The position numbers and the translations under genes were made by a program. Positions 25,125 to 27,473 of a stretch of DNA of 47,441 bases are shown here, in pieces. The notes beneath the pieces are model-generated. The model did not search any database and had not been told where the DNA came from. It saw only the letters and a program-made list of their open reading frames with translations. Origin of the DNA: Candidatus Nanopelagicales bacterium (lineage in GTDB: Bacteria; Actinomycetota; Actinomycetes; S36-B12; UBA5976); the NCBI GenBank assembly GCA_016463095.1, contig JAEMSA010000005.1, positions 1-47,441 of the forward strand, written 5' to 3'. Positions within the stretch are counted from its first letter, which is position 1. Each line of letters opens with the position of its first letter.

Positions 25125-25763
25125 ATGAAAACCCTGATCATCGATCACCCCCTGGTCTCAGCCAAGTTGACCACCCTAAGAGACAAAAATACGGACACTC
25201 CAACCTTTAGAAAACTTGTTGAAGAATTAGTGACACTTCTTTCTTACGAAGCAACTAGACATTTAATTGTGAAAGAAACAGAAGTTGAAACACCAATCAC
25301 AAAAACTAAAGGTTATGTAATAGCAAAGCCTAAACCACTTGTTGTACCAATTTTAAGAGCAGGATTGGGAATGCTTGATGGCATGATGCGCATCCTTCCC
25401 AATGCCGAAGTTGGCTTCTTGGGAATGGTTAGAAATGAAAAAACTTTACAACCATCAACTTATGCGGAACGAATTCCAAAAGAAATTAACAACCGCCAAG
25501 TATTTGTGCTTGATCCCATGCTGGCAACAGGTGGAACACTGGTCGCTGCAATCAAGCTACTTATTGATCGTGGGGCCAAAGATGTGGTGGCAATCTGTTT
25601 ACTGGCAGCACCAGAAGGTTTAAAAAAAGTTGAATCAGCATTTGGCAATGAAGTAAATGTCACCATTGTTTGTGCCGGTCTTGATGAAAAACTTAACGAA
25701 GTTGGTTACATCGTTCCTGGTTTGGGCGATGCTGGCGATCGTTTATACGGCACGGCCGATTAG
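25125..25763 (+). CDS. upp: Uracil phosphoribosyltransferase
   Basis: Pyrimidine salvage: uracil plus PRPP gives UMP. The 212-residue protein has [15 protein letters not shown], the PRPP loop [18 protein letters not shown] and the uracil-binding C-terminus [17 protein letters not shown]. The ORF track starts 38 codons too early; the ATG at 25125 ([19 protein letters not shown]) is the family start. It is divergent from livK, with a 174-bp shared spacer, and convergent with pdtaR, with which it overlaps by 4 bp at the stops (25760-25763). It acts in the cytoplasm and recycles nucleobases, fitting a scavenging lifestyle alongside the amino-acid importer. Confidence 0.97.
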
Positions 25764-26341
25764 TTCTTTTCGAACTCATCCATAACTAATTGAGCAACAT
25801 CTGTCATAGATCTTCTTTTATCCATTGCAGTTTTTTGCATCCATTTGAACGCTTCGGGCTCAGTGATACTTAAGTTCTTCATTAAAATTCCTTTAGCTTT
25901 CTCTATCATTTTTCGTGCTTTCAATTGTTCTTGTAAGTCAGTAACTTCAGCATCTAGTTGCTTTATTTCTTGGAATCTGGACACAGCTAGTTCAATAGCG
26001 GGCATCAAATCATCAATTGTGAAAGGTTTTGTTAGATAGGCCATAGCACCAGCATCGCGGGCTCGCTCCACTAAATCTTTTTGCGAAAAAGCAGTCAAAA
26101 TAACTACCGGTGCAATTCTTTGATTCGCAATTCTTTCGGCAGCACTAATGCCATCTAACTTAGGCATTTTGACATCCATCACCACAAGATCAGGTTTTTC
26201 TTTTTCAGTAATTTCTATTGCTGCTTCCCCATCACCTGCTTGCCCAACAACCTCATAGCCAGCTTCGGTCAACATTTCAACTAAATCAAGACGAATCAAT
26301 GCTTCATCCTCGGCGACAACAACTCTTAATGATGGCTTCAT
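25760..26341 (-). CDS. pdtaR: ANTAR-domain response regulator, PdtaR-like
   Basis: A two-component output protein that acts on RNA. Residues 1-125 form a receiver domain with the acidic pocket AEDE, phosphoacceptor Asp56 (LVVMDVKMP), Thr83 (ILTAFSQ) and Lys105 (YLTKPF). A coiled-coil linker ([18 protein letters not shown]) leads to the ANTAR domain ([40 protein letters not shown]), which in characterised proteins binds paired RNA hairpins and prevents termination. It is close in layout to M. tuberculosis Rv1626 (PdtaR). Its kinase PdtaS is not in this window, and Mycobacterium also has this gene near polA. It overlaps upp stop-to-stop by 4 bp. Confidence 0.93.
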
Positions 26342-26425: not shown

Positions 26426-26499
26426 GCCCCGGTAGCCCAACTGGCAGAGGCATACGACTCAAACTCGTACCAGCGTGAGTTCGAATCTCACCCGGGGCA
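26426..26499 (+). tRNA. tRNA with CAA anticodon (Leu-type) but short variable loop
   Basis: A 74-nt cloverleaf: perfect 7-bp acceptor stem GCCCCGG/CCGGGGC, a 3-bp D-stem GCC/GGC with an 11-nt D-loop containing AACTGGCAGA, anticodon stem TACGA/TCGTA with loop CTCAAAC (anticodon CAA, codon UUG), a variable loop of only CCAGC, and T-arm GTGAG-TTCGAAT-CTCAC. The discriminator is A73 and no CCA is encoded. The D-arm and A73 are leucine-like, but normal bacterial tRNA-Leu has a long variable arm, which is missing. It sits between divergent pdtaR and convergent nusB. Leucine identity is the simplest reading, but charging is uncertain. Confidence 0.88.
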
Positions 26500-26505
26500 C
26501 AAGAT

Positions 26506-26895
26506 TTAGATTTTTTTACTTATGGTTCCTAATGTTCCGTTTACAAATGCTGATGATTCGGCTGTACTCAAGGACTCAGCTAAAGAAACTGCTTCGCTGA
26601 TGACCACATTGGTGGGAACATCTTTTTGATAAAGCAATTCATAAACAGCGATTCTTAAGATATTTCTATCAACTCTTGGAATTCGATCAAAAGTCCAATT
26701 CTGCAGTGAAGTGGAAATCATCTCATCTATTTGAACCTGGTTTTCTTTAATACCTTTGATCAAATCTTGCGAATAATTTGTCACTTCTTGATCTGTTTCA
26801 TCATTGGTATTTGTGGCAGGAATTGAAATACCTTTTAGATCTGCTTCGAAGATTGTGTCGAGAGCACGTTTACGAGCTTTACTGCGTGCGCTCAA
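26506..26895 (-). CDS. nusB: Transcription antitermination factor NusB
   Basis: All-helical RNA-binding protein that joins NusE (S10) on boxA RNA and supports antitermination of rRNA operons. Visible family strings are ARSKARKRALDTIFEAD at the N-terminus, NWTFDRIPRVDRNILRIAVYELLY and DVPTNVVISEAVSLAESLSTAESSAFVNGTLG at the C-terminus. At 129 residues it is on the short side, lacking the C-terminal extension of some actinobacterial NusB. It lies 20 bp after efp at the end of the aro-pepP-efp run and converges on the tRNA, 6 bp away. Confidence 0.95.
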   Translation of the reverse strand: MSARSKARKRALDTIFEADLKGISIPATNTNDETDQEVTNYSQDLIKGIKENQVQIDEMISTSLQNWTFDRIPRVDRNILRIAVYELLYQKDVPTNVVISEAVSLAESLSTAESSAFVNGTLGTISKKI

Positions 26896-26915: not shown

Positions 26916-27473
26916 TTAAGCGCGACCAAGATAAGAACCATCGCGAGTGTCAACTCGGACCTTCTCACCTTGATTAATAAATAGTGGCACTTGAATTTCG
27001 AAACCTGTTTCTAATCTGGCCGACTTTGATCCAGCATTTGATCTATCACCTTGTAAACCAGGTTCGGTGTATTCGATTGTTAATTCCACGTTTGCTGGCA
27101 TTTCAATGTATAGCGGGTTACCTTCATACATCGCCACCATAAGTTCTTGGTTTTCTAACATGTAATTAGAAGCTTCCCCAACAGTGGTGTTACTTATTGT
27201 GATTTGGTCGTAATTGGTGGTATCCATAAATACCCAATCTTCGCCATCTTTGTAGAGATATTGCATATCTCTCTTATCAACTTGTGCTGTTTCAATTTTT
27301 ACTCCAGCATTGAAAGTTCTGTCTACTACTTTGCCGCTCATTACATTTTTTAATTTAGTGCGAACAAAAGCCCCACCTTTACCAGGTTTTACGTGTTGGA
27401 AATCAATAATGTTCCATAGTTGTCCGTCAATGTTTAAAACCATGCCATTTTTTAGTTCATTCGTTGATGCCAC
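26916..27473 (-). CDS. efp: Elongation factor P
   Basis: Relieves ribosome stalling at proline stretches. Three beta-barrel domains: the KOW-like N-terminal part with the loop [17 protein letters not shown] (the tip Lys is the one modified in some bacteria), the central OB part ([19 protein letters not shown]), and the C-terminal EF-P signature ([34 protein letters not shown]). The 185-residue length is typical. The start is GTG, with AGGAG about 9 nt upstream. It follows pepP, in the conserved aroQ-pepP-efp-nusB order. No efp-modifying enzyme is in the window. Confidence 0.97.

Follow-up and report, generated by a model that had tools for sequence, protein, structure and literature searches.

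A class I tRNA-Leu(CAA) without the long variable arm in Candidatus Nanopelagicales, and its relatives across Actinomycetota

A tRNA gene with a leucine anticodon and no long variable arm raises the question of whether it is the cell's leucine tRNA in an unusual shape or something else that carries a leucine anticodon. The gene occupies positions 26426–26499 (+ strand) of the window, the whole 47,441-nucleotide stretch of a Candidatus Nanopelagicales genome that was analysed. It comprises 74 nt up to the discriminator, and CCA is not encoded. ARAGORN calls a tRNA-Leu(caa) at 26426–26500 (+), and the Rfam RF00005 covariance model matches 26426–26499 at 56.6 bits (E 1.1e-9; gathering cut-off 29). 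Direct reading gives four perfectly paired stems (7-bp acceptor, 3-bp D, 5-bp anticodon, 5-bp T), an 11-nt D loop and the anticodon loop CTCAAAC, in which the anticodon CAA, reading UUG, lies at 26460–26462 (+). The predicted fold energy is −29.3 kcal/mol, against −19.6 kcal/mol for shuffles (z −3.4). ARAGORN, Rfam and direct reading confirm what the earlier note had described from the letters, namely a class I cloverleaf with anticodon CAA and no long arm. A scan for sigma-70-like promoters upstream of the gene, a weak kind of search, found none.

The variable loop, CCAGC at 26470–26474 (+), is 5 nt long and resembles the NCAGU consensus of the family, placing the tRNA outside class II, which has a variable region of at least 10 nt. 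The leucine-type features are present elsewhere in the molecule. The D arm at 26435–26451 (+) has a 3-bp stem (GCC/GGC) and the 11-nt loop CAACTGGCAGA, with C13, A14, A15, G18, G19, A20a, G21 and A22, and the discriminator at 26499 (+) is A73. A leucine anticodon is thus combined with A73, A14, G18G19 and A20a, nearly all of the known leucine identity elements are retained, and the proposal that the D arm and A73 mark a genuine tRNA-Leu is borne out. In the complete sets of two relatives (G035 and G182) together with the window's own genome, where no search pattern was imposed, the combination of G21 and A22 is confined to tRNA-Cys and the leucine tRNAs, class I and class II alike; requiring A15 as well leaves leucine tRNAs only. 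Among 165 parsed distinct class I tRNA-Leu sequences, G21 and A22 are invariant (165/165 each), A20a is found in 161/165 and U48 in 163/165. A14, A15, G18G19 and A73 were demanded by the pattern that collected these sequences, and 7 other short-armed calls did not fit it. Base counts at pattern-scan loci are conditioned on the pattern, because it fixed several loop bases.

The 15–48 pair (26440 and 26474) speaks against an ordinary leucine tRNA charged by LeuRS. It is A15-C48 here, with C48 in place of the usual U48, and A15-U48 is reported to be needed by E. coli LeuRS; that pair is an identity element of the E. coli enzyme and no general definition of tRNA-Leu. Among the leucine tRNAs of the two complete sets and of the own genome, the window tRNA alone has C48 for U48. 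A compensated form, G15-C48, is seen in the class I Leu(CAA) of another genome (G221, L351).

The fold is conserved. An alignment of 72 distinct relatives has standard pairs in 98.5% of its pair cells. Both sides are changed in 300 pair cells, compared with 55 in shuffles and 32–46 in slid controls. Fitting the rows to the structure gives it some advantage, but the margin is large. Two-sided changes so far above the shuffles indicate that the window tRNA is neither a chance fold nor a decaying pseudogene. A pseudogene or annotation artefact, for which nothing speaks beyond the unusual shape, has a negligible probability in view of the perfect stems, the strong compensatory change, conservation across the phylum and the detection of all 45 M. 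tuberculosis tRNAs by tRNA-seq (PMC11541572). The earlier judgement that the gene is no pseudogene stands.

The role of the tRNA can be read from the leucine tRNA set around it. The own genome (G000; 1.22 Mb, 87 contigs, 88.6% complete) yields 24 tRNA matches. Its CAA and TAA leucine tRNAs are class I, and its TAG and GAG leucine tRNAs are class II. The normal class II tRNA-Leu(CAA) whose presence had been raised as a check was found neither here nor in G035 and G182, the two relatives with complete sets. The 24 matches include no class II gene for CAA or TAA, but at 88.6% completeness the assembly may have missed a copy. A tRNA-Leu(CAG) was found neither in the own genome, perhaps through incompleteness, nor in G021; as G021 is 98% complete, the UAG tRNA may be the sole reader of CUG.

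Leucine tRNA lists were assembled for 21 genomes, and every match was read in 20 of them; the other genome, G010, has two class I matches without an anticodon reading. In none of the 20 do class I and class II genes share a leucine anticodon. The class I forms serve CAA and TAA in G000, G021, G035, G110 and G182, CAA only in G025, G026, G061 and G221, TAA only in G319, G237, G099 and G046, and CAA and TAG in G027. Class I is absent from the lists of G162, G011, G013, G018 and G024, and also from that of G034, for which just three leucine genes were found. Several drafts have no listed gene for one anticodon, so the statement that each anticodon occurs once is limited to the more complete genomes. 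In three loci (L341, L342, L346), from genera of the same family without class I tRNA-Leu, class II Leu(TAG) and Leu(TAA) stand in tandem.

In the complete 45-tRNA sets of G035 and G182, the only tRNAs with NAA anticodons are Phe-GAA and the class I leucine tRNAs CAA and TAA. The class I tRNAs are the only dedicated readers of UUA and UUG in these genomes. That the tRNA works mainly away from the ribosome, perhaps supplying an aminoacyl group to a tRNA-dependent enzyme, is a reading prompted by the unusual shape only, and no positive evidence for it was found. It is highly improbable given that the complete sets of relatives hold no other tRNA with anticodon CAA, that UUG makes up 18% of leucine codons (15 genes), and that the gene keeps a conserved place beside an ANTAR regulator and nusB/efp.

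One LeuRS locus passes the cut-off in each of 15 genomes, a result that led to rejection of a second, class I-specific LeuRS and implies that a single enzyme probably charges both tRNA shapes. The own LeuRS (L048 1237–3723, G000 C19) is without most of the leucine-specific domain, the insertion before KMSKS, with 16 residues from NQG to KS where 48–53 are usual. G046 and G319 share this short linker with G000 and its order. Loss of the leucine-specific domain was considered as a correlate of class I tRNA-Leu and rejected, since mycobacterial and Streptomyces-like class I genomes have the long linker and G162, without class I, has a long one too.

UUA and UUG together account for 59% of leucine codons in the 15 genes. 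At homologous Thermus/Aquifex sites, leucine is found for 34/60 UUR sites and 15/34 CUN sites; in these distant homologues UUR thus coincides with leucine no less often than CUN does, and is therefore read as leucine. Charging by another synthetase, with UUG (and UUA) partly or wholly reassigned, could draw on the shape and on most of the sequence outside the leucine core, which resemble other class I tRNAs such as those for Arg and Lys. It is nevertheless very improbable in the face of the UUR comparison, the leucine-type A73, A14, A15, A20a, G21 and A22, and the one-for-one swap with class II Leu(CAA) described below. The earlier note had suggested that the tRNA could be charged poorly, charged by another enzyme or used outside ordinary decoding. 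None of these suggestions is supported: the tRNA is one of the two class I leucine tRNAs that cover UUA and UUG, no class II copy was found, and there is one LeuRS.

The preferred reading, to which a probability of about 0.92 is assigned, is that the window tRNA reads UUG as the normal, and probably essential, leucine tRNA of the cell in a class I, short-armed form, presumably charged by the one LeuRS. Most likely, then, it works as tRNA-Leu even though its structure falls outside class II. By analogy with E. coli LeuRS, the single enzyme would recognise it through A73, A14, contacts between the D and T loops (G18, G19, A20a) and the 15–48 pair, not through the long arm. The E. coli enzyme is reported to rely on A73 together with hinge elements (A15-U48, G18G19, A20a, D–T loop contacts); the long arm is not crucial, and tRNA-Leu variants without the anticodon arm and the long arm are still active (PMC9976931).

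How often such tRNAs occur in actinobacteria, on which the earlier note could not comment, is answered by searches of the order, the phylum and named genomes: they are common. A covariance model (R1) built from twelve relatives, with which ordinary tRNAs score about 60 bits or less, has matches at E ≤1e-12 in 56/60 genomes of the order, and most often a genome has two. Across the phylum, sampled by drawing 297 genomes, about 100 of the matches listed reach at least 70 bits. A pattern scan of named genomes gives at least 80 loci, all of those listed being called tRNA-Leu by ARAGORN (39 TAA, 34 CAA, 7 TAG). The matches listed include Mycobacterium, Corynebacterium, Rhodococcus, Nocardia, Streptomyces, Bifidobacterium, Nocardioides and Microbacterium, as well as Acidimicrobiaceae. 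Class I tRNA-Leu is widespread in Actinomycetota.

Members also turn up elsewhere. Among the matches listed are MAGs labelled Christensenellaceae, Planctomycetota, Rokubacteria, Gemmobacter and Deltaproteobacteria (R1 76–85 bits; labels taken as given). Short-armed tRNA-Leu genes are carried by mycobacteriophage BeanWater, Streptomyces phage Targaryen, Felixounavirus wV8 (E. coli), Enterococcus phage PEf771 and a cyanophage. The tRNA cluster of BeanWater (L300 301–644) contains three short-armed leucine tRNAs (cag, gag, caa), two of which differ from the bacterial class I family. The coliphage wV8 has a class I tRNA-Leu(tag) (L299 294–370); E. coli itself is known only for class II tRNA-Leu. 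On a Tsukamurella plasmid (L304 301–377), a class I tRNA-Leu(caa) lies beside a site-specific integrase, a possible integration site.

The genomic neighbourhood connects the two classes. In the window, the tRNA gene is flanked by a divergent response regulator with an ANTAR domain (PdtaR type; 25760–26341, − strand; Pfam PF00072 and PF03861) and a convergent nusB (26506–26895, −; PF01029), followed by efp, encoding elongation factor P (26916–27473, −; Pfam). Alignment of homologues beside nusB/efp had been proposed as a check, and synteny shows this locus to be conserved in the order. Throughout the order, and also in Mycobacterium, Streptomyces and further actinobacterial families, the class I Leu(CAA) gene adjoins the ANTAR regulator; 82 class I Leu(CAA) loci, some of them duplicates of one gene, lie within 1.5 kb of an ANTAR regulator gene. 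The same regulator marks the class II gene, which is divergent from it at a distance of 44–231 bp in 9/9 genomes. Close relatives differ accordingly. Within genus g22, G061 and G221 have a class I Leu(CAA) and G162 a class II one, with the same locus and the same LeuRS linker. In family f1, the class differs between g1 and both g6 and g8 at a fixed locus. For Leu(TAA), which was examined less fully than CAA, flanking genes are likewise common to class I and class II genomes.

Because class I and class II Leu(CAA) genes share a locus, structural class changes in place. If LeuRS hardly needs the arm, actinobacterial tRNA-Leu genes could shift between class I and class II at a fixed site, either through remodelling or through recombination with a different tRNA-Leu gene. 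The synteny with class II Leu(CAA) favours the loss of the arm from a tRNA-Leu that the earlier note proposed, but the direction of change, and remodelling as opposed to replacement, are not proven: once the leucine core is set aside, class I Leu resembles the tRNAs for Arg, Lys or Thr as closely as it does class II Leu. A derivation from tRNA-Phe, hinted at by one Phe sequence, was dropped, Phe being seldom among the closest in complete sets.

An origin by replacement is a tentative alternative, judged at somewhat less than even odds. An unrelated class I tRNA would have gained leucine identity and replaced class II genes at their loci by recombination, instead of a stepwise loss of the arm in place. 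Consistent with it, class I leucine tRNAs of anticodons CAA, TAA and TAG share one tight consensus (NCAGU variable loop, A9, C13, C12-G23) and look like one family, with members in phages and in MAGs of several phyla. The loci shared with class II and the leucine-only core A15/G21/A22/U48, also shared, argue the other way, as does the Leu(CAA) of G099 (L445), a possible intermediate whose variable arm is class II and whose D arm (TAGCCGAATTGGCATAGGCA) is class I-like.

Several known systems are similar in part. The canonical bacterial class II tRNA-Leu shares the anticodon set, A73, A14, A15, G18G19, A20a, G21, A22, the 3-bp D stem and, in other actinobacteria, the locus; it differs in having an arm of about 13–18 nt instead of 5 nt, and G9, G13 and G12-C23 where class I has A9, C13 and C12-G23. 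Animal mitochondrial tRNA-Leu(UUR) also has a short variable loop and is reported to be specified mainly by A73 and A14 (PMC9976931), but it has its own mt-LeuRS and a weak anticodon arm, whereas the present tRNA is a perfect bacterial cloverleaf sharing one LeuRS with class II tRNA-Leu. The window belongs to a bacterial chromosome with one bacterial LeuRS, and is not an organellar gene served by mt-LeuRS. A short-loop tRNA-Leu(TAG) has been described in an auxiliary mycobacterial tRNA cluster (PMC6582537). It too is a mycobacterial tRNA-Leu with a short variable loop, but an auxiliary one beside a normal long-armed isoacceptor, while the class I form here is a core gene and the only one found for its anticodon. 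A reported tRNA-Met-like gene with the leucine anticodon CAA similarly has no long arm; it is possibly silenced, unlike the window tRNA, which is conserved and has leucine identity elements.

According to a 2023 review, tRNA-Leu keeps its long arm everywhere except in animal mitochondria (PMC9976931). Class I tRNA-Leu in actinobacteria contradicts this rule. In M. tuberculosis, tRNA-Leu-2, -3 and -5 are said in passing to have long variable loops (PMC11541572), which suggests that the remaining leucine tRNAs would be the short ones. No published account of class I tRNA-Leu as a general bacterial chromosomal feature was found in the open literature, subscription papers lying outside the search; the sequences themselves are already in databases. 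A possible lead, "tRX" in Streptomyces, yielded no supporting paper.

A broader proposition is moderately probable: bacterial tRNA-Leu would be dimorphic, with several isoacceptors across Actinomycetota each existing as class I or class II and not both, flipping in place at conserved loci without a matching change in LeuRS, while the class I family also travels in phages and works with LeuRS enzymes from hosts that have only class II tRNA-Leu of their own, E. coli among them. Major bacterial genera, mycobacteria included, read UUA and/or UUG with short-armed leucine tRNAs. They provide a natural test of the arm's role, in which a single LeuRS meets both shapes within the same cell and close relatives have different shapes at one locus. 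The finding is also relevant to annotation with isotype models, to enzymes and toxins for which the variable arm distinguishes tRNAs, and to how mitochondria could lose the arm.
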